Both the position numbers and the translations under genes were made by a program. From Gemmatimonadaceae bacterium (GTDB lineage Bacteria; Gemmatimonadota; Gemmatimonadetes; Gemmatimonadales; Gemmatimonadaceae), in assembly GCA_025362035.1 (NCBI GenBank), contig JANYIN010000064.1:1-55541 (forward strand): a stretch of 55,541 nucleotides of DNA. The letters run 5' to 3'. Below the pieces are notes generated by a model. It made no database searches. It was not told the DNA's origin and saw only the letters and a list, made by a program, of their open reading frames with translations. Shown here in pieces: positions 29,616 to 44,775 of the stretch (position 1 is the stretch's first letter; each line of letters begins with the position of its first letter).

Positions 29616-30161
29616 ATGGACGTCCTCGTAATGCTCGAGGAAAGCCCCGATCACTCGCCCGTGGTCGCGCACGTGAACTCTGTCCCATCGCCGCTCGCGT
29701 CCGAGCGTCCGGCGCGGGATATCGTAACGCTTTACGGCGTTCCGAGCGCAGAGTCGCTGGCGCTGGCACTGGCAGCCGCGGTCGAGTCACACCGCACCGG
29801 GCAGGGGCATGACAATCTGGATGCCATTCGCCATCTCGGCGTATGGGCGGAACGTGGTGCCTTCGGCGATGCTGCATGGCGCGACGTTGGAACGGGGAAG
29901 CTCGTGACGCACGATCTCGAGATTCCGCTGGAAATTCTCAACAGCACCGCGAGTCAGCTGCTTGGCGAGTGCGGTCAGCTTATCCGTCGCCTGGTGGCCG
30001 GGCTCTCAATGCCCGACTGGCCAGAAGGCGCACGTCGTGCGATCACGGTGTCGCTCAGCCCAGTCGTGGTCATGGCGGCCCCGGTGTTCGCGCCCCTCGA
30101 GTCGCTCCTCGATCGCCTTCGGGAAGCGGATGCACTTGCCTTCGACTACGAGGGAGACTGA
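29616..30161 (+). CDS. Hypothetical soluble protein
   Basis: A 181-residue acidic protein starting MDVLVMLEESPDHSP at ATG 29616, which has the very good ribosome site CAGGAGGGGG immediately upstream. Frame extends to 29505, but the ribosome site decides the start. The protein looks mostly helical with a conserved-looking core (NSTASQLLGECGQLIRRLVAGL) and a Pro-rich segment. No signal peptide, membrane helix or catalytic motif is seen. It is followed by a strong terminator and preceded by an inverted repeat, so it appears to be a single-gene regulated unit. I do not recognise it. Confidence 0.75.
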   Translation: MDVLVMLEESPDHSPVVAHVNSVPSPLASERPARDIVTLYGVPSAESLALALAAAVESHRTGQGHDNLDAIRHLGVWAERGAFGDAAWRDVGTGKLVTHDLEIPLEILNSTASQLLGECGQLIRRLVAGLSMPDWPEGARRAITVSLSPVVVMAAPVFAPLESLLDRLREADALAFDYEGD

Positions 30162-30194
30162 ACGAATCCTGCCAAGTCAGAGCGTTGCGTAGCA

Positions 30195-30226
30195 CAAGGC
30201 GGCCCGCAGAATTGCGGGCCGCCTTG
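30195..30226 (+). terminator. Strong intrinsic-type terminator
   Basis: A perfect 14-base-pair stem (CAAGGCGGCCCGCA with TGCGGGCCGCCTTG) around GAAT, followed by CTTTC. It is 33 bases after the stop of the preceding gene and shares the inner GCCCGCA/TGCGGGC arms with the hairpin at 28816-28856. Confidence 0.8.
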
Positions 30227-30342
30227 CTTTCATCCCGCGGAATTCGAGCCGGCAGGGACCGAGGGACCATGTGGCTTGCCCGCTTGACACCTACACCCCC
30301 GGCAGCCATGTCTAGGATGCACATACGAAGATGCGGGGCTCG

Positions 30343-30603
30343 ATGCCAAAGCTCACGACTCGTGATCAGGCGAACAGGCCGTCCAGTGACGAGCGGGTAT
30401 TCCCGGATGACAAAGGGCGCCTCTGGAGCGCTGCGCCGGAACGGCGCGACGGTCCGGCCAGTGCCCTTGTGTTTCGCTGCATCAGCGACGAGCGGCAGTC
30501 GGTGCGCGCCCTGGCTGTCGAGCCGCTCGTCCTCCGTGATGCCAAGGGTGACGAGCTGCGAGTCTCGCGTGCCGACGCCCCACGCATCGGCATCCTCTCA
30601 TAG
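30343..30603 (+). CDS. Small hypothetical protein upstream of EF-G paralogue
   Basis: An 86-residue soluble protein from MPKLTTRDQ (an in-frame ATG at 30331 would add four residues). The core, VFPDDKGRLWSAAPERRDG then ALVFRCISDERQSVRAL, looks like a compact alpha/beta fold. Composition and length suggest a real gene, and it ends 17 bases before the EF-G-like gene on the same strand, so the two are likely co-transcribed. I do not recognise a named family and cannot assign a role. Confidence 0.6.
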   Translation: MPKLTTRDQANRPSSDERVFPDDKGRLWSAAPERRDGPASALVFRCISDERQSVRALAVEPLVLRDAKGDELRVSRADAPRIGILS

Positions 30604-30620
30604 CACGACGAGGTTCACGC

Positions 30621-32723
30621 ATGCGAGCGTACCACGGATCGGAAATCCGCAACATCGCGGTGGTTGGACACGGGGCGAGCGGCAAGACCAGTCTGGTCGA
30701 TGCGCTCGCTTTCGTGTCCGGCACGAGTAGACGCCACGGAAGCATCGCCGAAGGCACCACCCTCACCGACACCGCTCCCGAAGAGATCGAACGCGGGTAC
30801 TCGATCAATCTCGGCTGCGCCCACGCGGAGTGGATGGACAGCAAGATCAACATGCTGGACACGCCGGGCTTTCTGGACTTCCAGGGAGACGCGATTGCCG
30901 GTCTCGCCGCCGCGGACGGAGCGCTGTGTGTGGTCGGAGCCACCAGCGGGGTGGAAGTCGGGACCGAACGAATGTTCCGCGAGGCGGTGCAGCGGGGCGA
31001 TCCCGTGCTCTTCGTCGTCACGATGATGGATAAGGAGCACGCCGACTTCGACGCCATCTATCGACAGATCAAGTCCAAGCTCACCAACAAGGTCATTCCG
31101 ATCGAAGTGCCGGTCGGGGAAGGCGCCGACTTCCACGGCATCGTCAACTTGTTCGACAAGAAGGCGCATGTCTACGCACGCGGCGCCCGTAGCGGCGCCT
31201 ACGAAGAAACCGACGTTCCCGCCGAGGTGCAGCCGCAATTCGATCGATACCATGCGGAACTGATCGAAACGATTGCGGCCACCGACGACACGCTGCTGGA
31301 ACGCTACCTCAATGGTGAGGAGATCAGCCGCGACGAAGCCATCGTCGCCATGAAGTCCGCCATGAAGCGCATGGAGCTGTTTCCCCTGTTCTGTGTGTCA
31401 TCCACGCTCAACTACGGCACGCGGGCGGTGCTGTCCACGATCGTCGAACTGATGCCGAGCGCCTACGAGATGGAAGAACTGCACGCGTTCGTAGGCTCGG
31501 AAGGCGACCACAAAGTGGAAATCCACGCCAAGGACGACGCGCCCTTCGCAGCGGTGGTGTTCAAGACGATGAGCGAACCGCACGTGGGAGACGTGAGCCT
31601 CTTCCGGATTCTTTCAGGCAGCGTGACCAGCGGAGACGAGTTGTTCAATGCAACTCGAGACGGCGTGGAGAAGCTGAATCATCTGGCGGTGTCGAACGGC
31701 CGCGACCGGATCGAGGTGCCGCGCTTGCACGCCGGCGACATCGGCTGCGTAGCGAAACTGCGCAACACCCATACGAACGACACCCTGTCCACACGCGCCC
31801 ATCCGGTACGCCTGCCACAGATCGTGTTTCCGGAAGCACTCGTGCAGATGGCGATTCATCCGACGAATCGGATCGACGAAGAGAAGCTGCAGCAGGGATT
31901 GCATCGACTCCACGACGAGGACCCGACGTTTCAGACGCACTGGAACGCGGAAACACACGAAACCATCGTGTCGGGGATGGGTGAGCGTCACCTCGAGGTG
32001 GCGCTCTCGAAGCTCAAGCGCAAATTCGGCGTGGGAGCGGAACTGTCGAAACCGAAGATCGCGTACCGTGAGACGATTCGGACGCGAGCGGAAGGACAGG
32101 GCAGGCACAAGAAGCAATCGGGTGGCCGAGGTCAATTCGGCGATTGCTGGGTGCGTATCCTCCCCGCCCAGCGCGGTGACGGAATCCGCTTCGAAGATCA
32201 TATCGTGGGCGGATCGATTCCGAGCAAGTTCATCCCGGCCGTTGAGAAGGGAATCCACGAAGCGGCCGAGCGGGGCATCCTGGCAGGTTTCCCGCTCGTG
32301 GACTTCCAGGTCGAGCTGTTCGACGGCTCCTACCACACGGTCGACTCGAACGAGATGTCGTTCAAGATGGCCGGCATCCAGGCATTCAAGTCCGTGGCCC
32401 CCAAGTGCAAGCCGGTGTTGCTCGAGCCCCTCGACGAAGTCGAGATCGTCGTGCCCGAGGAATCCCTCGGCGACGTACTCGGTGATCTGTCCTCCCGGCG
32501 GGGCCATATCCTCGGCACGGAGACGCCCGACGATGCGACCGGCACGCGAGTTCGGGCCGTTGTGCCGCAGTCGGAAATGCATCTGTATGCCAGTGCACTG
32601 CAGTCCATGTCGCACGGCCGCGCGAGCTTCCGTCGTCAGTTTCGCGGGTATGAGGAGATGCCAAACGAGGCCGCGCAGCGCGTGGTCGACGAAGCGGCGA
32701 AGACATTGGAATCGGCGCACTGA
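30621..32723 (+). CDS. Elongation factor G paralogue (EF-G2/FusA2-like GTPase)
   Basis: A 700-residue translational GTPase with EF-G architecture: G domain (1-~270), domain II, domain III (VSGMGERHLEVALSKL), domain IV (KIAYRETI, then HKKQSGGRGQFGDCWVRI) and domain V (LLEPLDEVEIVVPEESLGDV). The P-loop is intact (GHGASGKTS, 16-24). Two nucleotide-site motifs are altered. DTPGH is DTPGF (80-84), losing the His linked to GTP hydrolysis. NKxD reads TMMD (134-137). No rpsL-rpsG-tufA neighbours are present, so this is not the housekeeping fusA. Related EF-G2 proteins, e.g. in Thermus, also vary at the His. It may work in a specialised step such as ribosome rescue or recycling; this is inference. Confidence 0.9.
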   Translation: MRAYHGSEIRNIAVVGHGASGKTSLVDALAFVSGTSRRHGSIAEGTTLTDTAPEEIERGYSINLGCAHAEWMDSKINMLDTPGFLDFQGDAIAGLAAADGALCVVGATSGVEVGTERMFREAVQRGDPVLFVVTMMDKEHADFDAIYRQIKSKLTNKVIPIEVPVGEGADFHGIVNLFDKKAHVYARGARSGAYEETDVPAEVQPQFDRYHAELIETIAATDDTLLERYLNGEEISRDEAIVAMKSAMKRMELFPLFCVSSTLNYGTRAVLSTIVELMPSAYEMEELHAFVGSEGDHKVEIHAKDDAPFAAVVFKTMSEPHVGDVSLFRILSGSVTSGDELFNATRDGVEKLNHLAVSNGRDRIEVPRLHAGDIGCVAKLRNTHTNDTLSTRAHPVRLPQIVFPEALVQMAIHPTNRIDEEKLQQGLHRLHDEDPTFQTHWNAETHETIVSGMGERHLEVALSKLKRKFGVGAELSKPKIAYRETIRTRAEGQGRHKKQSGGRGQFGDCWVRILPAQRGDGIRFEDHIVGGSIPSKFIPAVEKGIHEAAERGILAGFPLVDFQVELFDGSYHTVDSNEMSFKMAGIQAFKSVAPKCKPVLLEPLDEVEIVVPEESLGDVLGDLSSRRGHILGTETPDDATGTRVRAVVPQSEMHLYASALQSMSHGRASFRRQFRGYEEMPNEAAQRVVDEAAKTLESAH

Positions 32724-32931
32724 TTCAACTCTCCGCTCGCCATGATGCGGTGACGAGAACGTTGAGGCGTGTGTCGGCCAAGCGGACCGCGCACGCCTCT
32801 CTCCTGCCAGCAACGCCGCTTGGGGCAAGAGCCCGTGCCCGCCGCCAGTTCGCGTGCCCGTCCATCCGGCTCACGCCGCTATATTTGCATGGAGCGAAGA
32901 CGCGCGAACTGCCCTCCGAGTGTGCGACGTG

Positions 32932-33699
32932 ATGAATTCGGTATCGGAAGGCGTGGGAGCGCCGGCCATGGATCTGCCCGGCGGATGGTACGACGTCGTC
33001 GGCCGGGGGCGAATGGGTCAGGGGCTCGCCGCCGCGCTGAGTGAATCCGGGCTGGCCGTGCGCGGACCGCTGGGCCGCGACGCGGATGGAGAAGGCGCAA
33101 GCATCGTGATTCTCTGCGTCCCGGACCGCGAAATCGCGGCCGCGAGCGCGGCACTGTGCGCCGGCGCCGTGGTCGGGCACGTCAGCGCGTCATGCGACCT
33201 GTCAGTGCTGGAGCCGCACGAGCGTTTCGCATTGCATCCGCTCATGAGTGTCGTCGGGGCAGGCGCACGCTTCGCGGGAGCAACCTGCGCCGTGGACGGG
33301 AATACCGACAGAGCCACCGGCGTGGCGCGCGCCCTCGCGACCCGCCTTGGCATGCATGCGCAGGTCATCCGGTCCGATCAACGCCGTCTTTACCACGCCG
33401 CGGCATCGGCCGCGTCGAACTACCTGGTGACGCTCGAAAGCATGGCGGAACGCCTGGTCAGCGGCGTCGGGCTGGATCGTGCGGCGCTCGTTCCATTGGT
33501 GCGGGCGACGGTGGAGCACTGGGCGATGTTCGGCGCAGAAGGTGCCCTGACCGGTCCGATCGCGCGCGGAGACGATGACACGGTTCGTGGCCAGCGTGAG
33601 GCCGTCGCGGACGCAGCGCCGGATATGCTCCCGCTCTGGGACGCGCTCGTCGATGCCACGCAGCGTCTGGCCGGCAACATGGGCACGCTGCCTCGATGA
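32932..33699 (+). CDS. Rossmann/DUF2520 oxidoreductase, candidate ketopantoate reductase
   Basis: A protein of 255 residues from ATG 32932; ATG 32968 (MDLPGGWYDVVG) has a better ribosome site (GGGAG) and may be the true start. The N-terminal Rossmann part contains VVGRGRMGQGLAAAL and a strand ending CVPDREI. The C-terminal helical domain has the DUF2520 pattern (FALHPLMSV, LYHAAASAASNYLVTLES, ALTGPIARGDDDTV). The fold belongs to the 6-phosphogluconate dehydrogenase-like/ketopantoate reductase group. Its stop overlaps the panC start (ATGA), and panB follows, so it is the first gene of a pan operon that has no separate panE. Reduction of ketopantoate to pantoate is therefore a reasonable inference. 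In some actinobacteria the same family also precedes panC. Confidence 0.85.
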   Translation: MNSVSEGVGAPAMDLPGGWYDVVGRGRMGQGLAAALSESGLAVRGPLGRDADGEGASIVILCVPDREIAAASAALCAGAVVGHVSASCDLSVLEPHERFALHPLMSVVGAGARFAGATCAVDGNTDRATGVARALATRLGMHAQVIRSDQRRLYHAAASAASNYLVTLESMAERLVSGVGLDRAALVPLVRATVEHWAMFGAEGALTGPIARGDDDTVRGQREAVADAAPDMLPLWDALVDATQRLAGNMGTLPR

Positions 33700-34556
33700 T
33701 CGTTCTTCGCACAGTGGCTGAACTCCGGGTAGCGGTGCGCGCGGCAAGATCGCGCGGGGAGCGCATAGGCCTCGCACCAACGATGGGCGCATTTCACGAC
33801 GGACATCTCGCGTTGATGCGTCGAGCGAAAGACGAATGCGGCTTCGCGATCGTCTCGCTCTTCGTGAATCCCGCGCAGTTTAGTGAAGCGGCAGACCTCG
33901 CGCGGTATCCACGCGACGAAGGCCGCGACACGGTCCTCGCCACGGCAACTGGCGTGGACGCGCTGTTCGCGCCGCCGGACAGCGAGGTGTATCCGCGCGG
34001 CTTTACGACCACCGTGGACGTCGGCGCGCTGGCGCTTCCACTGGAAGGCGTGGTCCGTGGCCCCGAACACTTTCGAGGGGTGGCGACGGTCGTGACGAAG
34101 CTGCTTTCCATGGCGCAGCCGGACGTCGCATTCTTCGGCCAAAAAGACGCCCAACAGACGCTGATCATTCGCCGGCTGGTGCGTGACCTCGATCTTCCCG
34201 TGCGCGTGGAGACATGTCCCACGGTCCGCGAGCCGGACGGACTGGCGATGTCGAGCCGAAACGCGCTGTTGGACGCGGAGTCGCGTCGTCGTGCGCCGAC
34301 GCTATGGCGCGCCCTCAGCGCCGTCCGACGCGTCGTCGATGGCGGCGAGACGAATCCGTCCCGTGCCCTCGACGCGGGCCACGCGATCCTCGCGACTGAG
34401 CGCATCGTGCCGGAGTATTTCGCCGCCGTTTCGGCGGAGACGCTCGCCCCGCTGGGTGTCCTGGAGGGAGAAGTGCTGATCGCGATCGCCGCCCGCTTCG
34501 GCGCCGTCCGTCTCATCGACAACGTGCTCGTGGACGCGCGGAGCGCCCGCACGTGA
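33696..34556 (+). CDS. panC: Pantothenate synthetase
   Basis: Joins pantoate and beta-alanine with ATP to give pantothenate. Of 286 residues, the HIGH-like motif PTMGAFHDGHL is at 28-38. The family core follows: FVNPAQFSEAADLARYPR, VVRGPEHFRGVATVVTKLL, DVAFFGQKDAQQ and TVREPDGLAMSSRNALL, with the KMSKS-equivalent serine loop SSRN. All substrate-binding positions I can recognise are present. It overlaps the DUF2520 gene by ATGA at its start and panB by GTGA at its end, giving a three-gene coupled operon. The enzyme is cytosolic and normally dimeric. panD, for beta-alanine, is not in this window. Confidence 0.97.
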   Translation: MIVLRTVAELRVAVRAARSRGERIGLAPTMGAFHDGHLALMRRAKDECGFAIVSLFVNPAQFSEAADLARYPRDEGRDTVLATATGVDALFAPPDSEVYPRGFTTTVDVGALALPLEGVVRGPEHFRGVATVVTKLLSMAQPDVAFFGQKDAQQTLIIRRLVRDLDLPVRVETCPTVREPDGLAMSSRNALLDAESRRRAPTLWRALSAVRRVVDGGETNPSRALDAGHAILATERIVPEYFAAVSAETLAPLGVLEGEVLIAIAARFGAVRLIDNVLVDARSART

Positions 34557-35419
34557 CGCCTCTCGGAAATGCGTCAGGCGTCGCGTCGATTCCGCAGCTC
34601 GCGGCGCTCCATGAGCGGGGCGAGCCGATCGTGATGCTTACCGCGTACGACTACCCGTCGGCTCGCATCGCCGAGGCCGGCGGTGTGGACGTGCTGCTCG
34701 TGGGCGATTCCGCAGCGATGACGGTGCTCGGCTACGCGTCCACGCGCGAGATATCGATCGACGAACTGTTGATGCTGACGCGCGCGGTGCGACGAGCAGT
34801 CCGGAAGGTGCCGGTGATCGGGGATCTCTCGTACGGGACGTACGAGTCCAGTGACGAACTCGCGGTGGCGACGGCGCGCCGGTTCGTCACGGAAGCAGGA
34901 TGCGCGGCCGTCAAACTCGAAGGTGCGGGCGAAATGCTGCCGCGGATTCGCGCCATCGTCGCCGCCGGCATTCCGGTCATCGGCCACGTCGGGCTGCTGC
35001 CGCAGTCGGTGCTGACGCCCGACGGCTATCGTGCGCGCGGCCGGGATGTCGAACAGGCGCTGTCCATCATCACGGATGCCCAGGCACTTGAAGCGGCCGG
35101 ATGCGCCGCACTCGTTGTGGAAGCGGTGCCGGCAGATGTGACGGCGGTCATCACCGAGCGGGCGCGAATTCCGGTCATCGGCATCGGAGCCGGTTCGGCG
35201 ACCGGAGGCCAGGTCCTCGTCTTCAATGACCTCCTGGGATTCACCGAAGGCCATGTGCCGCGGTTCGTGAAGCGGTACGCGAGCGCACACACTGATCTCG
35301 TGGCGGCGGTCCGAGCGTGGGCAACGGATGTCCGCGCCCGCCGATTCCCGGCGGGCGAGCAGGCTTATGGAATACCCGTGGACGTACTGGCCGGGCTGCG
35401 CGAGGCGTTGAAGAAGTAG
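34553..35419 (+). CDS. panB: 3-methyl-2-oxobutanoate hydroxymethyltransferase
   Basis: Transfers a hydroxymethyl group from methylene-tetrahydrofolate to ketoisovalerate, making ketopantoate. At 288 residues it has family length, with MLTAYDYPSARIAEAGG, LLVGDSAAMTVLGY (metal-binding Asp), PVIGDLSYGTYE, AVKLEGAG (substrate Lys/Glu), VIGHVGLLPQSV and the loop IGIGAGSATGGQVLVFNDLLG. The start is GTG, overlapping the panC stop. It is the last gene of the pan operon; the convergent kamA gene ends 31 bases beyond its stop, with no terminator hairpin that I can recognise in between. Confidence 0.97.
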   Translation: MTPLGNASGVASIPQLAALHERGEPIVMLTAYDYPSARIAEAGGVDVLLVGDSAAMTVLGYASTREISIDELLMLTRAVRRAVRKVPVIGDLSYGTYESSDELAVATARRFVTEAGCAAVKLEGAGEMLPRIRAIVAAGIPVIGHVGLLPQSVLTPDGYRARGRDVEQALSIITDAQALEAAGCAALVVEAVPADVTAVITERARIPVIGIGAGSATGGQVLVFNDLLGFTEGHVPRFVKRYASAHTDLVAAVRAWATDVRARRFPAGEQAYGIPVDVLAGLREALKK

Positions 35420-35450
35420 CCAGTCGGCGCGCCACCAATGGCCATCGCCC

Positions 35451-36644
35451 TCAACCGCTTGCGGACTTCCGGCTTCTCGCGACCCGCTTTTTCTTCGCCG
35501 CTTTCCCGGCTTCGATTGGAACGACGTCGTGCTCAGCGGCGATGCCAGGCAGCGTCGCGGGTACCGGCTGCCTCGGTTGCTTGTACGTGAACCGTTTGCC
35601 CTCGTAGTTGCGGAAGATCACCTCATCGTCAGTGATCTCTTCGACGTATTCGGGGAGCAGCGGCACCTTCCCGCCGCCGCCCGGTGCGTCGATCACGAAT
35701 TGGGGGACCGCCAGTCCCGACGTCCAACCGCGAAGCGCCTGGATGATCTCCAGCCCCTTCTGCACGGTGGTGCGGAAGTGTTCGCCCCCCGCGACCTGGT
35801 CCGCCATATAGATGTAGTACGGACGCACGCGCGCCTTCAACAACTCGTGCATCAACTTCATCATGATGACCGGGTCGTCGTTGACCCCCTTGAGCAGCAC
35901 GGTCTGGCAACCGAGCGATATACCTGCCTTGCTCAGCCGATCCAGCGCCGCGACGGCCGCCGGCGTCAGTTCGCTCGGATGGTTGAAGTGGGTGTTCATG
36001 AAGATCGGATGGTATTTCTGCACCATCTCGCAGAATTCCGGCGTGACACGTTCCGGCAGGTGCGATGTGATGCGGCTGCCGATCCGAATGATCTCGATAT
36101 GAGAAATGGCTCGCAGGCGCTGGAATATGTACTCCAGTCGGCGATCGCTCAGCATCATCGGATCGCCGCCCGACAGGATCACGTCGCGAATTTCCGTGTG
36201 TCTCGCGAGATACGCGAAGGCTGACTCGTACTCGTTGAGCGAAATCTTTTCCGGATCGCCCACCTTGCGCCGCCGCGTGCAAAACCGGCAGTAACTCGCG
36301 CAGACTGGGCTCACCAGAAAGAGCGCTCGATCGGGGTACCGGTGCGTGATGTTCGGTACCGGCGAATCGCCGTCCTCGTCGAGCGAGTCGATGACGCCGT
36401 CCACCACCTCGAGCTCCTGCACCGTAGGGATGAACTGCTGCCAGTTCGCGTCACCGACTTCCTTGATCTGCGACAGCGATTCCCGTGTAATGCGCATCTG
36501 GAAGTTGTCGAACGCCGGACGCAGCGCCGCGACGTCGATCTCCCGCTCGGCGACCTCGTCGCCCCACCGCTCCGCGACATACGACCGAAGCTGCTCGAGC
36601 GTGCTGATGCTGTCGTTGCGAAGTGTCTTCTGCCAGTCGCTCAT
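35451..36644 (-). CDS. kamA: Lysine 2,3-aminomutase (KamA-family radical SAM enzyme)
   Basis: Radical SAM, PLP-dependent isomerase predicted to make L-beta-lysine from L-lysine. It has 397 residues from ATG 36644 (GGAG ten bases upstream). The cluster motif is C115-x3-C119-x2-C122 in CASYCRFCTRRR. The glycine motif is LSGGDPMML. The two lysine-amine-binding acids of clostridial enzyme (D293, D330) match D282 (YYIYMADQ) and D319 (FVIDAPGGGGK), and K326 is the PLP lysine. Retention of both Asp residues favours lysine over glutamate as substrate. It is longer than EpmB, and no EpmA or efp is nearby. The last ~20 residues are Lys/Arg-rich. The gene lies downstream of two ATP-grasp ligases; no AblB acetyltransferase is seen. 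Confidence 0.93.
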   Translation of the reverse strand: MSDWQKTLRNDSISTLEQLRSYVAERWGDEVAEREIDVAALRPAFDNFQMRITRESLSQIKEVGDANWQQFIPTVQELEVVDGVIDSLDEDGDSPVPNITHRYPDRALFLVSPVCASYCRFCTRRRKVGDPEKISLNEYESAFAYLARHTEIRDVILSGGDPMMLSDRRLEYIFQRLRAISHIEIIRIGSRITSHLPERVTPEFCEMVQKYHPIFMNTHFNHPSELTPAAVAALDRLSKAGISLGCQTVLLKGVNDDPVIMMKLMHELLKARVRPYYIYMADQVAGGEHFRTTVQKGLEIIQALRGWTSGLAVPQFVIDAPGGGGKVPLLPEYVEEITDDEVIFRNYEGKRFTYKQPRQPVPATLPGIAAEHDVVPIEAGKAAKKKRVARSRKSASG

Positions 36645-36826
36645 CGCCTGAGTGCTCCGCCTTCTCGTGTGGTGAGGCGTGTGGTGAGTCTGATGCGCTC
36701 GTCGGCTGGAGCGTAGAAATCGCGCCCGCGCGCCGCTTCGGAGCATCCGCGTGCGCAAAACGCCTGCCTTGGCGCATATGCACCGCGGGACGAGGTCTCG
36801 ACGACGAGGCCAAGTCGCATGTCCGT
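36645..36826 (-). other. 182-base gap between ATP-grasp ligase and kamA
   Basis: No gene here. It contains two tandem copies of the 11-mer CTCACCACACG (minus strand) with period 12 at 36666-36688, starting 22 bases upstream of the kamA ATG. kamA could have its own promoter in this gap or be read from the ligase operon. I see no convincing -10/-35 pair. Confidence 0.45.
36666..36688 (-). repeat. Tandem 11-mer in the kamA leader
   Basis: CTCACCACACG-C-CTCACCACACG on the minus strand, identical copies one helical turn apart (12 bases), between the kamA ribosome site and the upstream ligase gene. It could be a tandem protein-binding site. Confidence 0.5.
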
Positions 36827-37882
36827 CTATGCCTCCCCGGCGGCGAACAGGTCCAACTCGGTGTCGGGCGTCACAATGCCTGACAGTTTCTGTGCCAATT
36901 CCCAGCGGTCTGCGGGCGACGCACCATCCCGAGCACGCTGCAGCCCGAGTTCGCAGATTCGACGCACCAGCGAGCCGTACTCGATGCCCGTCACCCGCGC
37001 CATGCGCGCAAGTCCGGCGTCCGGCGCGATGTCCGGATTGGCGTTCACTTCCAGGATCCATGGCCGGCCGCGCTCATCGATGCGCATGTCCACACGACCG
37101 TACCCGGAGCCGCCCACGATGCGCCACGCCGCGACGGCGATCCGGCGAAGCTGCGACGCCACACTGGCCGGTAGACGTGCAGGACACCGCGGCGCCGAAC
37201 CGAGATCCTCAACGCCACCCTCCTCCCACTTGGAACGGTACGTCACAATGCGCCACATGCCCTTCGGCATGCGCGCGAAGTCGATTTCGGAAATGGGCAG
37301 TACCGCGTCGCCAAGTATGCCGACGTTCACCTCCCTTCCGTCAACGTACCGTTGTACGAGTACCTCGTCCCACCGTTCCAGCATGGCGCCGACCCGCTCC
37401 GTCAGCGCGCGGGTGGACCGGACCACCGACCGCTGCTCCACCCCAATCGACGCATCTTCCGCGGCGGGTTTGCAGATGGTGGGAAAACCAACGCTGGGAA
37501 TGGCGCCACCGCGGCGCACCACGGCGAACTTGGGCACGGGCAGGCCCGAGCGCTCCAGTGCGGCGTTGACCACATGCTTGCGCAGGCAGATCGACGTCGT
37601 CCAGCTCGAACTCCCCGTGAACGGGATCCCGAGCAGCTCCAGAACGGAAATCACCGGCGGTTCCAGTGTAGCGACGCCGTCGATCGCCTCGCAGAGATTG
37701 AACACGAGATCCACGCGAGCGCGACGGACCTTCTCGATCCACCGGGCGTCCGGCAGCACGGGAAGCCGCACGATCTCGTTGCCCTCGCTCGCCAGCGACG
37801 CTTCGATCGCCGCAACGGTGCCGATGATGAGCTGATCAGGCGCGGCCGCGCCCAGACCGTCGAAGAGAATCGCGATCTTCAT
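36827..37882 (-). CDS. ATP-grasp ligase, D-Ala-D-Ala-ligase-like (second of pair)
   Basis: A 351-residue ATP-grasp enzyme expected to form an amide or peptide bond via an acyl-phosphate. The N-terminal domain starts MKIAILFDGLGAAAP, and the Ddl-type HGxxGE loop is replaced by VFNLCEAIDGVATLEPPV. ATP-grasp elements are GFPTICKPAAEDASIGV (ATP lysine), VLVQRYVDGREVNVGILG and the metal site GYGRVDMRIDERGRPWILEVNANPDI. The residue set differs from true Ddl, and there are no mur or fts neighbours, so cell-wall D-Ala-D-Ala synthesis is unlikely. The start at 37882 overlaps the stop of the first ligase (ATGA); frame further upstream lies inside that gene. It is probably co-expressed with kamA. Confidence 0.88.
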   Translation of the reverse strand: MKIAILFDGLGAAAPDQLIIGTVAAIEASLASEGNEIVRLPVLPDARWIEKVRRARVDLVFNLCEAIDGVATLEPPVISVLELLGIPFTGSSSWTTSICLRKHVVNAALERSGLPVPKFAVVRRGGAIPSVGFPTICKPAAEDASIGVEQRSVVRSTRALTERVGAMLERWDEVLVQRYVDGREVNVGILGDAVLPISEIDFARMPKGMWRIVTYRSKWEEGGVEDLGSAPRCPARLPASVASQLRRIAVAAWRIVGGSGYGRVDMRIDERGRPWILEVNANPDIAPDAGLARMARVTGIEYGSLVRRICELGLQRARDGASPADRWELAQKLSGIVTPDTELDLFAAGEA

Positions 37883-39000
37883 GCGGCGCTCGTGCCGAGC
37901 CGGACCTGCTGGCGGAGAGCCGCTGACTGCAGGCACGCTCCGATGAGTTCGTCGTACGACACGCCCGCCGCGCGCGCGGCCTTCGGCAGACACGAATTAT
38001 CCGCGGGATCGGGCAGGATGCCGGGGAGCGGGTTCACTTCCACGATGTACGCGCGCCCGTCTGCGCCAAGTCGGACGTCCACGCGGGACCAATCGCGGCA
38101 CCCGAGCACCTGATACGCCCGCAGCACGACATCCTCGATCTCGGCGCGGAGCGCAGGACTGAGGTCGGCGGGACACTCGAAGATGTCGAGTGGCGCGTCG
38201 TGCGTGTCCCACAGCCACTTGGCCTCGTAGCCATAAATCGGCAGGGCGCCGGTTGGCAGGGCGGAGAAGTTCATGCCGACGATTGGCAGCACTTGGGCCG
38301 ACGTGCCGTTGCCGAGCACGCCGCACGTGAATTCCGCGCCGGACAGGTAGGCTTCGACCAGCACCGGCTGCGCATATCGCTCGAGCAGCTCACTCACCAC
38401 CGGCTCGAGTGCGTCCGGCGAGGTGATGACGTTGCGCTCCGTGATGCCCTTGGACGATCCCTCGTGCACCGGCTTCGCGAACAACGGCACGCGTGGATGA
38501 CGGAGGATCAACGAGCGGAGTTCCTCGTGCGAGCGGACGAGCCACCAGTCGGCCGTCGGCACGCCTCGCGCTCTCAGGACCTCCTTGGTACGCGCTTTGT
38601 CGAGACACAGCGCCAGCGTGAACGGGTCGCTGCCGGAGTAGGGCACGCCGAAGAACTCACAGATGGCTGGCACGTGCGCTTCGCGATTGGGTCCGCGGAG
38701 GCCCTCGGCGATGTTGAAGACGATGTCGGGCCGCTCAGCGCGAAGGCGCTCCGGGAACTCGTCGGTCGCTTCCAGCGGGATGACGGAGCCGAAGCGCGCG
38801 AGGGCTTTGGCCACTGCGGAAATCGTGGCCGGTGCGTCCCATTCCGCGTACTCGTCGTTCGCCGATGGTGCCGGCGCCACGAGGGTCGCGAGACCGGAGC
38901 CGCTACTGGGCGGCTCCTCGTCGGCGCGCGCCAGCTCGGCAGCCTCTTGGGCGGCGATGGGTTCGGGCTTCTGATTGTACGCGAAACCGATGCGCGTCAT
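37879..39000 (-). CDS. ATP-grasp ligase, D-Ala-D-Ala-ligase-like (first of pair)
   Basis: A 373-residue ATP-grasp enzyme. From ATG 39000 (GGGATGGA just upstream) it reads MTRIGFAYNQKPEP, then an acidic stretch of ~50 residues. Next comes an N-terminal domain with IVFNIAEGLRGPNREAHVP in the place of the Ddl signature. The ATP-grasp core has PLFAKPVHEGSSKGI, VLVEAYLSGAEFTCGVLG and SRVDVRLGADGRAYIVEVNPLPGILP (metal-binding Asp, Glu, Asn). It is only distantly like the following ligase, so the pair probably uses different substrates in sequence. It is the first gene of the minus-strand set that ends in kamA. A 236-base non-coding region with a palindrome lies upstream. Bacterial Ddl-like proteins outside mur clusters often join other small acids or peptides. 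Confidence 0.88.
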   Translation of the reverse strand: MTRIGFAYNQKPEPIAAQEAAELARADEEPPSSGSGLATLVAPAPSANDEYAEWDAPATISAVAKALARFGSVIPLEATDEFPERLRAERPDIVFNIAEGLRGPNREAHVPAICEFFGVPYSGSDPFTLALCLDKARTKEVLRARGVPTADWWLVRSHEELRSLILRHPRVPLFAKPVHEGSSKGITERNVITSPDALEPVVSELLERYAQPVLVEAYLSGAEFTCGVLGNGTSAQVLPIVGMNFSALPTGALPIYGYEAKWLWDTHDAPLDIFECPADLSPALRAEIEDVVLRAYQVLGCRDWSRVDVRLGADGRAYIVEVNPLPGILPDPADNSCLPKAARAAGVSYDELIGACLQSAALRQQVRLGTSAA

Positions 39001-39112
39001 TCCATCCCGGATATGGTCTGCTGCCATGCGGCGCGGGGCCGCTCTTCGCGTAGCGAGTTCACCCAGGCGCCGGTCACCGCGCAACCACGTCCCTTACGCG
39101 GCAATCACAGGC

Positions 39113-39128
39113 CGAGCGCATGCGCTCG
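39113..39128. promoter_or_regulatory. Perfect 16-base palindrome upstream of the ligase operon
   Basis: CGAGCGCATGCGCTCG, fully self-complementary, 113 bases upstream of the first ATP-grasp start inside the only non-coding stretch of the cluster (39001-39236). It fits a dimeric regulator site. A TTGCA/TGCAA inverted pair lies at 39164-39180. No clear promoter boxes were found. Confidence 0.45.
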
Positions 39129-39198
39129 TTCATCGATCAGGAACAGTGCTCGCTGTGGGCAAATTGCACACCACATGCAAACGCCGCCGAAGATAGGT

Positions 39199-39218
39199 TC
39201 GCGCGATTTCTCGCGCAA
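39199..39218 (-). terminator. Small hairpin after thyX
   Basis: On the minus strand TTGCGCGA-GAAA-TCGCGCGAA forms eight pairs (one G-U) with a GNRA-type loop, 18 bases after the thyX stop. No T tract follows. Confidence 0.45.
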
Positions 39219-39236
39219 TGAAAAATTTCGCAACGA

Positions 39237-40013
39237 TCAAACTTTGTGGTAGCTGATGCGCGCCGCTTCGTGCCGATCGTCGGCTTGATAGATCTCGAAG
39301 TCGGAAAAGAAGCCCGGCGCCTCCTCGCGCAGCACGCGCAACACCATGACCGCCAGGCGGCGAATCTCGAGCTCGGCGCCCTCGCTCGAGCGGAGTTCGA
39401 GCATCGTGCGCCACGCGCGCGCGTTGCCGGTCACGACGATCTTGGTCTCCGTGGAGTTCGGGAGAACTCCGCGCGCCGCTTCGCGGGCCATCTTCCGGCG
39501 ATGAACCTTGTCCGCCACCCAACCGTAGCGCTCCATGAGCTGGCCGACCAGGGCGACATACGCAGCCTGCGCTCCCTCGATCTGGGAACGCCACGTGCTT
39601 TCCAACGCCTCGTCCCCCGCGATGGCCGGCGGGACCACGAAGCACGCGACGCTCTCGTCCACGTACCGCTGGGACAGCTGGGAATACGCGAATCCCGCCC
39701 GATGGCGCACGAGTTCGTGGGTGAGCGACCGGCTCACTCCCTCCAGGAGCAGGGAATAGCTGGCGTGTTCGAGAACGCTGCCGTGCCCCTGCTTCTTTAT
39801 GTTCTCGAGGTATTCGCGCGTGGCCCGGCCCGCCGGATTGTGCTGGCTCATGTAGCATAGCCGGCCGGCAAACTCGGCGAGGCGCTCGCCGTCGGTGCTC
39901 TCGCCCTGCCACTGCACGCGAAGATGGTCCGGCGAGCTGAAGGCGGGGCGGGCGAGCACGGTGACCTTCGGCTCGTAGTAGAGACGCGGTGCGGAGGGTG
40001 CGGCTGCGGTCAT
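39237..40013 (-). CDS. thyX: Flavin-dependent thymidylate synthase
   Basis: Methylates dUMP to dTMP using methylene-tetrahydrofolate and FAD/NADPH. It has 258 residues. The ThyX signature is at 103-117, RHRAGFAYSQLSQRY, one residue longer than the classical RHRxxSxxxxSxRY spacing. Other family segments are RLCYMSQHNPAGR, QGHGSVLEHASYSLL, SRSLTHELVRHRAG and NARAWRTMLELRSSEGAELEIR, with the FAD/dUMP-binding Arg residues. No thyA or folA lies nearby. The start at 40013 has no clear ribosome site. The gene stands between the FAD-oxidase gene (71 bases upstream, same strand) and the ligase-kamA set. Confidence 0.95.
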   Translation of the reverse strand: MTAAAPSAPRLYYEPKVTVLARPAFSSPDHLRVQWQGESTDGERLAEFAGRLCYMSQHNPAGRATREYLENIKKQGHGSVLEHASYSLLLEGVSRSLTHELVRHRAGFAYSQLSQRYVDESVACFVVPPAIAGDEALESTWRSQIEGAQAAYVALVGQLMERYGWVADKVHRRKMAREAARGVLPNSTETKIVVTGNARAWRTMLELRSSEGAELEIRRLAVMVLRVLREEAPGFFSDFEIYQADDRHEAARISYHKV

Positions 40014-40084
40014 GACGGTGGCGTGTGGCGGCAGAAGGGAGGGTGCGCAACAAATCTATCGGCTTCGCGCCACGTGCGTAGTCG

Positions 40085-41734
40085 TCAGGACAATGCCGCG
40101 GCAGATGCCTCCGCGAGAAGCTCGAGCCGTGGTCGGGAATAAGCGCGCTCGCGCTCGATCTTCGACAACGCGGCGCGCGCCGCAGCGGGAAGGGGAGGCA
40201 GCGACGGGTCGTACTTGACTCGCTCGATCGATCGCGCCCCGGGGACGGCGATCTTCGAACCTGCGTTGAGAATCCCGTGCTGGTCGAACGCGTGCTTCAC
40301 CGTGGCGAACCGCGCGAGCGCCTCGGCCGTCCATAACTGATGCAACAGTGGAGCGCGCAGCCGCCCGTCGCCGTGCTCACCGGCGATAGTGCCGCCGAGT
40401 GCAGCCGCCAGCGTGGTTACCTCGGCCAACAGCGCGTTCACGCGGTCCGGCCAGTCCGCGAGACGGAGGTCAACCAGCGGGTTTACGTGAACGTGTGCGT
40501 CGCCGGCGTGGCCGAAAATCACGCCACGGATTCCCTGCCGGGCCAGCGCAGCACGCACGCCCCGCACGTATTCCGCGAGCCGGTCCGGCGGAACGCAACC
40601 GTCTTCGATGAACTGCATCGACTTCAGCGACGGGTCGAGTCGGCTGAGAATGGGGCTGGCCGCATGCCTCAGTTCCCACATCGTGTGTTCATTCGATTTG
40701 TCGAGCGCCAGCGACACAGCACTCGCCCCGGCGGCGCGGAAGCTCCGTTCCAGCAAGCGCGCGAGCCGGCTGCACTCCTCTTCAGTCTCGCCCTCTACCT
40801 CGGCAAGCAACACGGCCTCCGCTCCCTCCGACACGGGGACCTTCGCGCCGCCTGCGCGGGCGACATCCAGAAAGGTCCGATCGAGCAACTCGCACGCACT
40901 TGCGCCAGCGTCCGTCGCGGAGCCGGCTGCGACGACGGCGTCCTCCAGCGTGTCGAACGCTCCGAGAACGCTGGCGGTGGCGAGAGCAAGCGGGGTGAGC
41001 TTGAGTTCAATGCCTACGATAACCGCCAGCGTCCCTTCGCTTCCGACCAACAGATCGACGAGGTCGCCACTCTCGGCGAACGCGGCTAGTCCGTAGCCTG
41101 ACGATTCCTTGCGCACGCCTACGTGTCGCGATGGTGCGACTCGCTCGGCGGCGACGAGCCGGGTCGACTCGGCGAGGAAGCGCAAAACCGGCGTGACACT
41201 GGGCGCTGGCGAACCTCGTCTCACCTCGCCGCGAGAGCCGTCGGCGAAGACGCAGTCGAGCGCCTCCACCCAGGGGCGCATCGCGCCATACCGCAACGTG
41301 TGCGCACCCGCCGCGTTGGTGGACGCCATCCCCCCGATAGTACAGTACGCACCGCTCGACGGATCCACCGGAAAGGAAAGCCCGACACGACGGACGTGGC
41401 TCTCCAGGGCGTTCCGAACCGCGCCAGGGCCGCAACGCACCGTTCGACGCGCAACGTCCACGGGCGCAATCGCGTTCAGTCTGCTCACGTCCACGATGAG
41501 GCCGTCTCCGATCGCACCACCGGCCATGCTGCTCCCGGAACCGCGCGGGATGAGCGGAATGCCTTCCTGGCTCGCCCACCGAACAAGGCTGACGACGTCG
41601 TCCGCGTCAGCGGGAACCGCGACGGCACGCGGGATCATCTGTGCGATGCCAGCCGCCTCGCTGTATACGGCGCACGCCGCCGCATCTTCGCGGAAAAGCC
41701 CTCGATAATGACGCGGAGGAGCGTGGATTGTCAT
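40085..41734 (-). CDS. FAD-binding 2-hydroxyacid oxidase/dehydrogenase (GlcD/D-lactate dehydrogenase type)
   Basis: A 549-residue member of the vanillyl-alcohol-oxidase flavoprotein class. The FAD domain has GIPLIPRGSGSSMAGGAIGDG, CTIGGMASTNAAGAHTLRYG and LLVGSEGTLAVIVGIELKL. The C-terminal domain has FGHAGDAHVHVNPL and AGEHGDGRLR, whose His/Gly/Asp form the usual substrate and metal site, then NPGSK-like ILNAGSKI. No [4Fe-4S] CCG domain is attached, so it is the short form (glycolate oxidase GlcD, D-lactate or D-2-hydroxyglutarate dehydrogenase); the exact substrate is not decidable. The start at 41734 (MTIHAPPRHYRG) begins the conserved region; frame further upstream has no support. It is divergent from the squalene synthase gene. 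Confidence 0.9.
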   Translation of the reverse strand: MTIHAPPRHYRGLFREDAAACAVYSEAAGIAQMIPRAVAVPADADDVVSLVRWASQEGIPLIPRGSGSSMAGGAIGDGLIVDVSRLNAIAPVDVARRTVRCGPGAVRNALESHVRRVGLSFPVDPSSGAYCTIGGMASTNAAGAHTLRYGAMRPWVEALDCVFADGSRGEVRRGSPAPSVTPVLRFLAESTRLVAAERVAPSRHVGVRKESSGYGLAAFAESGDLVDLLVGSEGTLAVIVGIELKLTPLALATASVLGAFDTLEDAVVAAGSATDAGASACELLDRTFLDVARAGGAKVPVSEGAEAVLLAEVEGETEEECSRLARLLERSFRAAGASAVSLALDKSNEHTMWELRHAASPILSRLDPSLKSMQFIEDGCVPPDRLAEYVRGVRAALARQGIRGVIFGHAGDAHVHVNPLVDLRLADWPDRVNALLAEVTTLAAALGGTIAGEHGDGRLRAPLLHQLWTAEALARFATVKHAFDQHGILNAGSKIAVPGARSIERVKYDPSLPPLPAAARAALSKIERERAYSRPRLELLAEASAAALS

Positions 41735-41837
41735 TCGGCGAACCGATCGTGCTTGGGAGGTGTAGGTGACCCCTCTGCGATCAACGCGTATCTTTCCTGG
41801 GGTGACGACAAGTCTAATGACGGACGACCGAGGGCGA

Positions 41838-42896
41838 ATGGAATCGCAACAGGCCAAAGACACCGCTCGTTTCGAGCACGCCGAGCGATTCAGCCGCGCT
41901 ATTTTGCCGGAGGTGTCGAGAACCTTCGCCCTCAGCATTCGCATGCTGCCAGGCGGGTTGGGACGCGCCGTTCGCACGGCTTATCTTCTGTGCCGGATCG
42001 CGGATACGCTGGAAGATGAGCCGGAGCTCCCCGCGTCCGAAAAGGCGGCGCTGCTTGACTCCCTCACACTGTGCTTCGACGACGCGGCAATCGCCGACCT
42101 ATTGCCTCAGCGGCTGGTCAGCATCGCGGGCGAGCGGGCGCACGTCCGTCTCGCGCAGCACACCGATCTGGTCTTTGTCCTGTATCGCTCACTTCCGGCG
42201 GGAACGCGCGTGCACGTGCGACGCTGGGTCATCGAGATGATCGGCGGCATGCGCAAGTTCGTGCTCCTCTATCCCCACGGCATCCGGATCCAGAGTCTGG
42301 AGGAGTACAAGGAATACTGCTATTACGTCGCGGGCACCGTGGGCTACCTGCTCACCGATCTGTGGCACGAGCATGCGCCAAGCATCGGCGAACGCCAGTA
42401 CCGCGTCCTGCGGGAGAAGTGCCGCGCCTTTGCCGAAGCCTTGCAGACGGTAAACATCCTCAAGGACGTCGCGACGGATGCCGAGCAGGAGAATTCCATC
42501 TACATCCCGGAAGATCTGCTGAAGGCGCATGGCAGCAGTCACGCACTGATTCTCTCTCCGGAGCGTTTGGGCGGCACGCGCGATGCACTCGCCACTCTGG
42601 TCAAGTTGGCGTGGCACGATCTGGAGGGCGCGCGCAGCTACCTGCTGTTGATCCCGCGGCGCGCCGTGCCCATACGGCTCTTCTGTGTGCTCCCGCTGCT
42701 GTTCGCGTATGCGACACTCCGGGATTTGACGCGGACGCCGCAGGCGCTGGCTCGACGCGACGTGATCAAGATCTCCCGTCGGGAAGTGAAGTCCCTTACG
42801 ATCTTCGGCTTCCTGGTGATTCTGAGTAACAGCGGACTTGGCTGGCTCGCGGACCGCGCGATGCGTCGGCCCTTTGTGGTCGCCGGAGTTCGCTGA
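41838..42896 (+). CDS. Squalene/phytoene synthase family protein (eukaryotic-like squalene synthase features)
   Basis: Condenses two prenyl diphosphates. From ATG 41838 (GAGG four bases upstream; ATG 41817 is the alternative) it has 352 residues. The first Asp-rich motif is DTLED (56-60) in LCRIADTLEDEP, the central motif is EYCYYVAGTVGYLLTDLW (159-176), and the second Asp motif is NILKDVATD (206-214). The YVAG segment and a hydrophobic C-terminal helix (SLTIFGFLVILSNSGLGWLA) resemble eukaryotic farnesyl-diphosphate farnesyltransferase rather than bacterial HpnC/HpnD or CrtB. Squalene from two FPP is thus the best guess, with phytoene as alternative. No crt or hpn neighbours are present. It is divergent from the FAD oxidase gene, with ~100 bases between, and ends at a palindromic hairpin. 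Confidence 0.88.
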   Translation: MESQQAKDTARFEHAERFSRAILPEVSRTFALSIRMLPGGLGRAVRTAYLLCRIADTLEDEPELPASEKAALLDSLTLCFDDAAIADLLPQRLVSIAGERAHVRLAQHTDLVFVLYRSLPAGTRVHVRRWVIEMIGGMRKFVLLYPHGIRIQSLEEYKEYCYYVAGTVGYLLTDLWHEHAPSIGERQYRVLREKCRAFAEALQTVNILKDVATDAEQENSIYIPEDLLKAHGSSHALILSPERLGGTRDALATLVKLAWHDLEGARSYLLLIPRRAVPIRLFCVLPLLFAYATLRDLTRTPQALARRDVIKISRREVKSLTIFGFLVILSNSGLGWLADRAMRRPFVVAGVR

Positions 42897-42911
42897 GTCG
42901 AGAGGGCACTG

Positions 42912-42929
42912 ACCCGCTGATCAGCGGGT
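42912..42929. terminator. Palindromic terminator between convergent genes
   Basis: ACCCGCTGATCAGCGGGT, a perfect 18-base palindrome that folds as a 7-pair stem with GATC loop, in the 47-base gap between two convergent genes. It can serve both strands. No U tract is present. Confidence 0.6.
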
Positions 42930-42943
42930 GGCTCGGTACGCCC

Positions 42944-43759
42944 TCAGCGCTTCCGCCCTCCCACCGCCGACGCGAGCATGCTGATTAGCGAAGGCGGGCG
43001 CCCAGTGTCACCGCGTTCCAGTCGGTCGAGCACCTGTTCCAGTGCCAGTTGCGCGCGAGTGCGCACGTTGCCGTGCGACGAGCGAGTCACGGCCACTCCA
43101 CCGCCCGCAAACAGGCCGGCGACTCCCAAGCCAAGAACGATCGGAAAGTGGAGTACCGCAAGGACGCCGCAGGCGGTCGCCCCAGCTAGTGTAAGACCGA
43201 CGTTCTGTTGCGCCATCAGCCACCGATGGCCGCTCAGATCCGCGTCGAGCCGCACCAACACCCGCGTCGGATCGAGGGCGATCACCGTTGCGCCCACCGA
43301 ACTCGCGCGGCCCAACTCGTGACCTCGCCCACTCACGGCCCGGCGTACCGTGCCGACAAGATCCCGCCGGCTCTGCCATACGATGCGTTCGCCAAGATAG
43401 CGTTGAACGACGAGACCCTCCTGCCGCTGCATCCAGTCGTCGAGCGCCTGAAGCACCTGCGGGGGAGAGCCACGGACGGTCCGCTGCGCGCTCGCCGCCG
43501 CGCCGCCGTAGAGTCTCGCGAGCAGGCCATGCTCCACCGGCACAGCCACTCGCGTTCGCTCCTCGGCCAATGCCTGCCGCAGATTGATCGGGTCGAGGCC
43601 GACCTCCTTGGCCAATGCAAGCAATTGTGCCTCGTCGAGCTGTCCGTCAGGATCTATCGTGGTGGACGACTGGAGTTCGAGCGCGCGCGCAAGCACTCGA
43701 TCCACGGAGGCGCGGTCGATCGATGGCGGAACCTCGGGTGGGAGCGGCGCATCTGCCAT
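42944..43759 (-). CDS. Hypothetical membrane protein
   Basis: A 271-residue protein. Residues ~15-68 form a soluble helical domain (DRVLARALELQ, then GQLDEAQLLALAKEVGLDPINLRQAL) that resembles short SHOCT/EF-type helical hairpins. A middle alpha/beta part follows, and then two adjacent transmembrane helices near residues 188-228 (VGLTLAGATACGVLAVL and IVLGLGVAGLFAGGGVAV). The tail is basic. No catalytic motif is visible, and I do not recognise the family beyond the general look of conserved Gemmatimonadota proteins. It diverges from the threonine dehydratase gene across 62 bases. Confidence 0.75.
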   Translation of the reverse strand: MADAPLPPEVPPSIDRASVDRVLARALELQSSTTIDPDGQLDEAQLLALAKEVGLDPINLRQALAEERTRVAVPVEHGLLARLYGGAAASAQRTVRGSPPQVLQALDDWMQRQEGLVVQRYLGERIVWQSRRDLVGTVRRAVSGRGHELGRASSVGATVIALDPTRVLVRLDADLSGHRWLMAQQNVGLTLAGATACGVLAVLHFPIVLGLGVAGLFAGGGVAVTRSSHGNVRTRAQLALEQVLDRLERGDTGRPPSLISMLASAVGGRKR

Positions 43760-43821
43760 GGGAGATAAGGTAGCGCCGGAGGGCTATTGTGTCCTCCTCT
43801 GCGCCGCAATAGGGTCAAGCC

Positions 43822-44775
43822 ATGGTCACCGTTCAAGATATTCACAACGCCCGCGCGCGAATTGCTGGCCGCGTGCACCTGACGCCAATGATCGGTTCCT
43901 CGACGATCGCCAGAAGAATTGGAGCGGCGAGCTTCGAGCTCAAGTGCGAAAGCGTCCAGAAGACCGGGTCCTTCAAGGTGCGCGGTGTGCTGAACAAGCT
44001 GAGTCAACTGACGGACGCGGACCGCGCACGGGGCGTCGTAACCGTATCCGCGGGCAATCACGCGCAAGCGATGGCCTGGGGCGCCAGGGCGGCCGGCGTG
44101 AGATGCACCGTGGTCATGCCGGCGAACGCGTCCCGAACGAAGGTCGCCGCCAGTATCGGATACGGGGCAACCGTCATTCAGCACGGCACCGGCGCGGACG
44201 CATTTCGCATGGCGCTCGAACTCGCGGACTCCGAGGGCTTCACCTTCGTCCATCCGTTCGACGATGAACAGATCATCGCCGGCGCCGGGACCGCAGGGCT
44301 CGAGGTGCTCGAGCAGTCGCCGTCGCCCGACGTGGTGGTGGTCCCCGTGGGTGGTGGTGGTTTGATCGCTGGCATCGCCGTCGCCGTCAAGGAGACGAGC
44401 CCGAACACCAGGGTGATCGGAGTAGAGCCGGCGGGGGCAGCGGTCATGCGGCAGAGTCTCGATGCCGGCCGCGCGCTGAACATGGTGTCCATGCACACCA
44501 TTGCGGATGGTCTCGCCGCACCGATGGCGGGTGCGCGCAACTTCGACATCGTCAAACGCTACGTGGACGACGTGGTGCTCGTAAGCGACGATGAGATTGT
44601 GGAGGCGATGAAGGAGCTGCTTTCCAGGTGCAAATTGCTCGCGGAGCCTGCCGGCGCCGCCGCTACGGCCGCCGTGCTTGCTGGCAAGATTCCGCTTCAG
44701 GGAACCGAGCGGGTGGTGGCATTGCTGAGCGGCGGCAATGTCGACCTGGAACAGCTCGCGACCCTCGTCGCGTAG
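43822..44775 (+). CDS. Threonine ammonia-lyase (catabolic type, no ACT domain)
   Basis: PLP enzyme (fold type II) that deaminates threonine, and usually serine, to the 2-oxoacid. It has 317 residues with the Schiff-base Lys in KTGSFKVRG, substrate-contacting VSAGNHAQAMAW, the phosphate-binding VPVGGGGLIAG, and a C-terminal VALLSGGNVDL. It lacks the regulatory ACT domain of biosynthetic IlvA, as in TdcB or in serine/threonine racemases. The metal site of eukaryotic-type serine racemase (E/D triad) cannot be excluded as present. The ATG at 43822 starts the family N-terminus (VTVQDIHNARARI). It is convergent with a lipoprotein gene 33 bases beyond. Confidence 0.93.
   Translation: MVTVQDIHNARARIAGRVHLTPMIGSSTIARRIGAASFELKCESVQKTGSFKVRGVLNKLSQLTDADRARGVVTVSAGNHAQAMAWGARAAGVRCTVVMPANASRTKVAASIGYGATVIQHGTGADAFRMALELADSEGFTFVHPFDDEQIIAGAGTAGLEVLEQSPSPDVVVVPVGGGGLIAGIAVAVKETSPNTRVIGVEPAGAAVMRQSLDAGRALNMVSMHTIADGLAAPMAGARNFDIVKRYVDDVVLVSDDEIVEAMKELLSRCKLLAEPAGAAATAAVLAGKIPLQGTERVVALLSGGNVDLEQLATLVA

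Follow-up and report, generated by a model that had tools for sequence, protein, structure and literature searches.

A conserved cluster of two Ddl-type ATP-grasp ligases, a GNAT acetyltransferase and a KamA-type aminomutase suggests a beta-lysine peptide pathway

Introduction

The pathway to N-acetylglutaminylglutamine amide consists of a GNAT acetyltransferase and an ATP-grasp enzyme; to our knowledge it includes no KamA, and its ligase is of a different type. Here we analyze a gene cluster in which KamA stands beside two ATP-grasp ligases and, in related genomes, a GNAT acetyltransferase. The cluster lies in a 55,541-nucleotide stretch of DNA from a Gemmatimonadaceae bacterium (assembly GCA_025362035.1, contig JANYIN010000064.1, positions 1 to 55,541 of the forward strand; hereafter the window), whose genome (G000) comprises 4.64 Mb in 212 contigs and is 93% complete. 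PMC1224877 describes N-acetylglutaminylglutamine amide as an acetylated dipeptide solute, and KamA with an acetyltransferase as the known pair behind the osmolyte N-epsilon-acetyl-beta-lysine.

Sequence comparison indicates that the locus is a four-gene biosynthetic unit, ligA-ligB-GNAT-kamA, with an acetyltransferase gene that has decayed in the window. On balance, we favor a pathway in which beta-lysine would pass through two amide ligations and an acetylation to give a peptide-like metabolite. We found no paper describing this gene set, and none containing both "KamA" and "ATP-grasp"; most subscription papers and all preprints lay outside the search, so that absence from print is not shown. 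Within the literature searched, this agrees with an earlier annotation of the window made from its letters (the original prediction), which knew of no described function for these genes.

Results

Layout of the cluster and the acetyltransferase remnant

The original prediction described three genes on the same strand, an ATGA overlap of the two ligase genes and a gap of 182 bases between ligB and kamA, and these coordinates are confirmed. The features are, in the order of transcription:

ligA, 37879-39000, minus strand: Ddl-fold ATP-grasp ligase whose N terminus carries an additional stretch of low confidence (residues 16-47)
ligB, 36827-37882, minus strand: the other Ddl-fold ATP-grasp ligase
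GNAT gene remnant, 36641-36820, minus strand: 59 codons, at the position of the acetyltransferase gene in relatives
kamA, 35451-36644, minus strand: lysine 2,3-aminomutase-like protein of 397 amino acids, of the radical S-adenosylmethionine (radical-SAM) and pyridoxal phosphate (PLP) type

ATGA is common to the ligA stop and the ligB start, and an overlap of the same four letters joins the stop of the GNAT remnant to the start of kamA.

The view of a three-gene set, however, has to be given up, since relatives carry four genes and the GNAT gene between ligB and kamA had been missed. Among the 31 relatives fetched (L039-L069), profile matching placed a GNAT gene after ligB, and before kamA where kamA exists, in 29, all except L048 and L055. 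Nineteen of these GNATs went into the profile and so match it by construction; the remaining relatives and the window are not part of it. The ligB-kamA gap of the window compares with about 490-750 bases in most relatives and is 366 bases shorter than that of L039. Relative to L039, the remnant retains the opening codons and the C-terminal third but has lost the middle, including the acetyl-CoA loop. Its C-terminal part matches the GNAT profile (E 1.1e-12, profile positions 155-205 of 210); the remnant gave no Pfam match. Because relatives hold a GNAT gene at this site and the window keeps only the 59-codon remnant, we read the gap as a deletion scar, the acetyltransferase having apparently been deleted in the window's lineage or in the assembly.

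Conservation of the gene order

A scan with the ligA alignment returned at least 555 places encoding a relative, of which the best 80 were kept. Among these, 59 were usable, meaning that ligA and ligB were present with at least 2.5 kb beyond ligB; 20 were cut by contig ends and one had no visible ligB. All four genes occur in 48 of the 59 usable loci, including one with a divergent KamA (L139). The other 11 comprise seven without GNAT only, three without kamA only (L121, L128 and L136, where the gene is truly absent at the site, with no N) and one with a run of N. Apparent loss of kamA was rejected for L150, in which a run of N follows ligB, and for L214, in which a kamA-like start (MANWQQALKKGV) ends in a run of N.

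The four genes are also together in all eight loci among the best 80 that are titled Bacteroidetes, Ignavibacteria or Chlorobiaceae. Nineteen further ligA loci come from the Bacteroidetes/Ignavibacteria phylum: 14 hold all four genes, and five (L208, L209, L229-L231) belong to genomes in which the genes are dispersed. GC content of the four-gene loci fetched from that phylum ranges from 0.31 to 0.63. Overall, ligA was found in 95/298 genomes of the window's phylum (E 1e-119 or better) and in 53/296 genomes of the Bacteroidetes/Ignavibacteria phylum (E 1e-100 or better). Dozens of genomes share this order, in Gemmatimonadota as well as among those titled Ignavibacteria or Bacteroidetes, with homologues about 35-92% identical to the window proteins; the cluster is therefore more than a chance arrangement, and the neighborhood is conserved.

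Across the 73 of 100 loci that passed the score limits for all four proteins, 27 having been dropped, the pairwise identities of each protein are correlated with those of the others (r 0.76-0.93). This parallel divergence across two phyla argues against a secreted, beta-lysine-containing peptide antibiotic or signal, made without a non-ribosomal peptide synthetase (NRPS). Such a product would suit the fact that ATP-grasp ligases and KamA both occur in natural-product pathways. Yet no export, resistance or regulatory gene accompanies the cluster by eye in 32 loci; the nearest are a response-regulator-like family (c27, 4/32) and a peptide-binding-protein-like family (c35, 3/32), both kilobases away, and the neighbors resemble housekeeping genes such as thyX and recG. 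We consider this explanation improbable.

Co-occurrence of ligA and kamA

In a sample of 60 genomes that includes the window's own, ligA and kamA agree in presence or absence in 57. At E 1e-100, ligA was detected in 33 genomes and kamA in 32: both in 31, ligA only in two (G020, G055), kamA only in one (G011, at a contig edge) and neither in 26. These counts include related, non-independent genomes, and hence no probability is attached to them.

Nine genomes carry ligA apart from the other genes (five known from fetched loci, four from coordinates), and all nine encode the same kind of KamA (370-531 bits). Furthermore, five genomes with ligA but lacking the usual kamA were judged, and four of them (G055, G616, G617 and G619) have a divergent KamA (155-176 bits) that keeps the cysteine motif and both aspartates, and the one in G619 occupies the kamA slot at L139. 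G069 was set aside: it has no KamA, but its site contains a run of N. Conversely, 18 of 20 ligA-minus genomes gave no KamA-family match at E 1e-15, the exceptions being G011 (usual kamA, at the contig start) and G050 (126 bits). Second KamA-family genes are present in G042 and G058 (192-198 bits). In the ligase tree, ligA forms one group (100/100), and the second ligase of the dispersed genomes forms a clade of its own (nine rows, 99/99) outside both cluster ligB and the third paralogue.

The ligases compared with Ddl

LigA (E 1.6e-35) and LigB (E 7.7e-28) each have a match to the Ddl C-terminal domain, and their predicted models (predicted local distance difference test, pLDDT, 88.6 for LigA and 90.9 for LigB) retrieve Ddl entries at the head of fold searches of the PDB. 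Nevertheless, both score below every cut-off among the NCBIfam Ddl-type models (25 of 36 listed for each ligase), with best scores of 178 bits (LigA) and 154 bits (LigB) against 243 bits. The D-Ala-D-Ala ligase model TIGR01205, with a cut-off of 245.65 bits, gives 159 bits for LigA and 121 bits for LigB.

Residues were compared using E. coli DdlB as reference and 50 rows per ligase. LigA retains K97, K144, G149, S150, E180, E187, K215, R255, D257, E270, N272, G276 and S281 in 50/50 rows, and changes H63 to E (50/50), Y216 to W (48/50) and L282 to C (50/50); in the window these are E99, W262 and C337, and the counterparts of S150 and S281 are present. LigB retains K97, K144, E187, K215, R255, D257 and N272 in 50/50 rows and E270 in 45/50, and changes E180 to Q (42), G149 to D (49), S150 to A (49), Y216 to W (50), G276 to D (50) and S281 to A (45 of 50), with D143, A144, W219, D284 and A289 standing for G149, S150, Y216, G276 and S281 in the window. 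The HGxxGE signature is replaced in both, as originally predicted: H63 corresponds to E99 in LigA and to D68 in the window's LigB, and the position is E in every LigA row and most often D in LigB (25/50), otherwise varied. Of H63, S150, Y216 and S281, which we take to be diagnostic of Ddl, the window's LigA has only S150 and S281 and its LigB none. Placing of Ddl E15 in LigA is unsure, the alignment giving D49 and the start of the model helix also fitting E53 or D55; in the window's LigB this position is a gap. Since the ATP and magnesium residues are kept, in LigB most of them, and acceptor residues are replaced, ATP use appears to be retained and the acceptor side altered, more so in LigB than in LigA.

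A separate Ddl scores over the cut-off in 55 of the 60 genomes. Among the 33 ligA genomes, 31 have such a Ddl, the exceptions being G000 and G010, and we accordingly reject LigA or LigB as the cell's own Ddl. No Ddl was found at E 1e-60 in G000, G010, G019 and G035, and that of G017 lies below the cut-off at a contig edge; for G000, a metagenome-assembled genome, the gene is probably unassembled. Taken together with the scores below the Ddl cut-offs and the acceptor residues changed in 45-50 of 50 rows, this bears out the view that the ligases are not ordinary Ddl. It also lowers the standing of a cell-wall pathway, in which Ddl-type ligases would make an alternative peptidoglycan dipeptide or bridge with beta-lysine, an idea otherwise encouraged by the Ddl structures that top both fold searches and by the S150 and S281 counterparts of LigA. 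Moreover, no mur-type gene was seen by eye, on one representative each, among the gene families recurring in at least 3 of 32 neighborhoods, and the GNAT would presumably block the amine needed for cross-linking. A cell-wall role is thus doubtful at best.

The acetyltransferase

Pfam Acetyltransf_1 or _7 exceeds its gathering score in all four intact cluster GNATs scanned, placing them in the GNAT superfamily. Their nearest solved relative is PDB 2r7h (E 1.7e-51 with the profile, 3.9e-31 with a single protein), presumably from a Desulfovibrio; its depositors named it "Putative D-alanine N-acetyltransferase of GNAT family".

The order of the genes, with the GNAT gene directly preceding kamA and its remnant overlapping the kamA start in the window, could speak for plain N-epsilon-acetyl-beta-lysine as the product, the GNAT serving as an AblB analogue and the ligases being unrelated; KamA with an acetyltransferase is, after all, the known osmolyte pair (PMC1224877). 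Against this, kamA is present or absent together with ligA in 57 of 60 genomes, all nine dispersed genomes still encode KamA, kamA and the ligases occur without GNAT in 7 of the 59 loci, and the AblB model TIGR03827 matched none of the five cluster GNATs scanned (E 0.01). The same model was found in none of the 60 genomes at E 1e-5, with 4 of 14 control genomes positive. The likelihood of this simpler pathway is slightly lower again than that of a cell-wall or a secreted product.

The aminomutase

Aligned to the clostridial enzyme 2a5h, the window's KamA shows the features that the original prediction had named: the CxxxCxxC motif (C115, C119 and C122), the PLP lysine K326, and D282 and D319, whose counterparts we take to hold the lysine side chain. 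The cysteines are present in 73/73 rows, and both aspartates in 68/68 and K326 in 67/67 of the rows with a letter at the position. In other words, the full AblA residue set is there. The best model matched is AblA TIGR03820 (417.5 bits), ahead of the glutamate (379 bits) and arginine (320 bits) 2,3-aminomutase models; EpmB TIGR03821 gives 219.5 bits against a cut-off of 369.3. All 24 KamA alignment members match these four models, and the scores are those of the window protein only.

EpmB belongs to the KamA family, but beta-lysylation of elongation factor P (EF-P) is very improbable here, given the EpmB score and the finding of EpmA over its cut-off in 0/60 genomes. Weaker EpmA-model matches, one per genome in 59/60 and mostly in frames of about 460 amino acids or more, would fit lysyl-tRNA synthetase. 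KamA is AblA-like, not EpmB, and none of the three outcomes that would have told against the original prediction, namely an unconserved neighborhood, ordinary Ddl ligases or a KamA grouping with EpmB, was observed. Its statement that the known partners of KamA are lacking stands for EpmA and AblB, neither of which was found in the 60 genomes, but not for acetyltransferases at large, as a non-AblB acetyltransferase is the rule in relatives and is deleted only in the window.

Neighboring and related loci

Upstream of the cluster, at 39237-41977 of the window, lie thyX-like and flavin adenine dinucleotide (FAD)-linked-oxidase-like genes. The upstream genes keep their place in relatives (family c3 in 25 and family c2 in 28 of 32 loci), and some relatives have thyA-like and dihydrofolate reductase-like genes there instead. 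In L208, L209, L229 and L230, a gene for a small protein whose KWLWGLIG-like stretch probably spans the membrane precedes the stand-alone ligA, and the adjoining gene is presumably rsmB-like.

Further ATP-grasp genes were seen elsewhere. The window's own genome has two adjoining Ddl-like ATP-grasp matches (G000:C160:20180-21738; L003, L005), one with a VFNLCDG motif, and no kamA was noticed by eye in the short stretches fetched around them. In 5 of 16 loci tested (L216, L218, L219, L220 and L224), a divergent gene with a QCGPFAL motif, which to us resembles a C39-type cysteine peptidase, stands beside a third ATP-grasp gene that is ligB-like, and a neighbor of the same type was seen by eye in L217. 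In a GC-rich genome (L227:8960-11226), a KamA-like gene of another kind comes immediately after a ligA-like ligase gene. We did not count this pair as a further case of the cluster, as its KamA is different and, by reading, has the first lysine-binding Asp changed to Gln; pairing of ATP-grasp enzymes with KamA may be a wider theme.

Discussion

We propose that the products of the cluster act in sequence: (I) KamA would convert L-lysine to beta-lysine, (II) LigA and LigB would each use ATP to activate a carboxylate as an acyl-phosphate and couple it to an amine, incorporating beta-lysine into a di- or tripeptide-like amide, and (III) the GNAT would acetylate an amine, either on beta-lysine or on the product. 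The peptide-like product would stay intracellular.

Several observations weigh against this proposal or parts of it. The window's KamA falls short of the curated AblA cut-off (418 against 525.4 bits), and at L086, L087 and L096, three of the 80 loci, kamA is split into two pieces. L211 and L213 show ligA and ligB only. A complete-looking genome, G020 (also G618), carries ligA, ligB and GNAT, and no KamA-family gene was found in it at E 1e-15; the ligases may thus function independently of beta-lysine or be supplied with it by another route. In the dispersed genomes, the second ligase lies outside cluster ligB in the tree, and persistence there is established for ligA and KamA only, no genome-wide search for the GNAT having been made. 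The GNAT gene is missing from 7 of the 59 loci and broken in the window, which speaks against a strict need for acetylation; from its repeated absence, acetylation would seem to be an accessory step, or one that another enzyme can perform. Finally, no osmotic-stress genes were noticed by eye beside the clusters, and Rfam gave no match in window positions 30000-44000 and only tRNA and signal recognition particle (SRP) RNA in 18 loci, hence no salt-linked riboswitch. A role of the product as compatible solute is accordingly put forward by analogy; from what PMC3543383, PMC1224877 and PMC9337991 describe, this role is possible but tentative.

We regard it as evenly balanced whether the cluster represents an undescribed, NRPS-free class of beta-lysine peptides, in which the product of a radical-SAM aminomutase would undergo two ligations, by Ddl-derived ATP-grasp enzymes, and an acetylation, and which would be vertically kept in Gemmatimonadota and Ignavibacteria-like bacteria. 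There is a fair chance that the product class is new. The cluster indicates a beta-amino-acid metabolite in largely uncultured bacteria, whose enzymes annotation would tend to label D-Ala-D-Ala ligase and lysine aminomutase. With the genes kept together in a compact, conserved cluster and about two thirds of the genomes sampled from the phylum lacking ligA, the product should be directly findable, by expression of the four genes or by comparison of hosts with and without them.

Among known systems, the operon for the acetyl-beta-lysine osmolyte likewise places a KamA-type aminomutase and an acetyltransferase together, according to PMC1224877 and PMC3543383. Unlike that operon, the cluster has two extra Ddl-type ligases, a GNAT that is not AblB and a KamA under the AblA cut-off. 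Ddl, in turn, shares its fold and most ATP and magnesium residues with LigA and LigB, but differs from them at H63, Y216 and L282 (LigA) and at G149, S150, Y216, G276 and S281 (LigB), positions replaced in 45-50 of 50 rows, and at H63 in LigB, which is varied.

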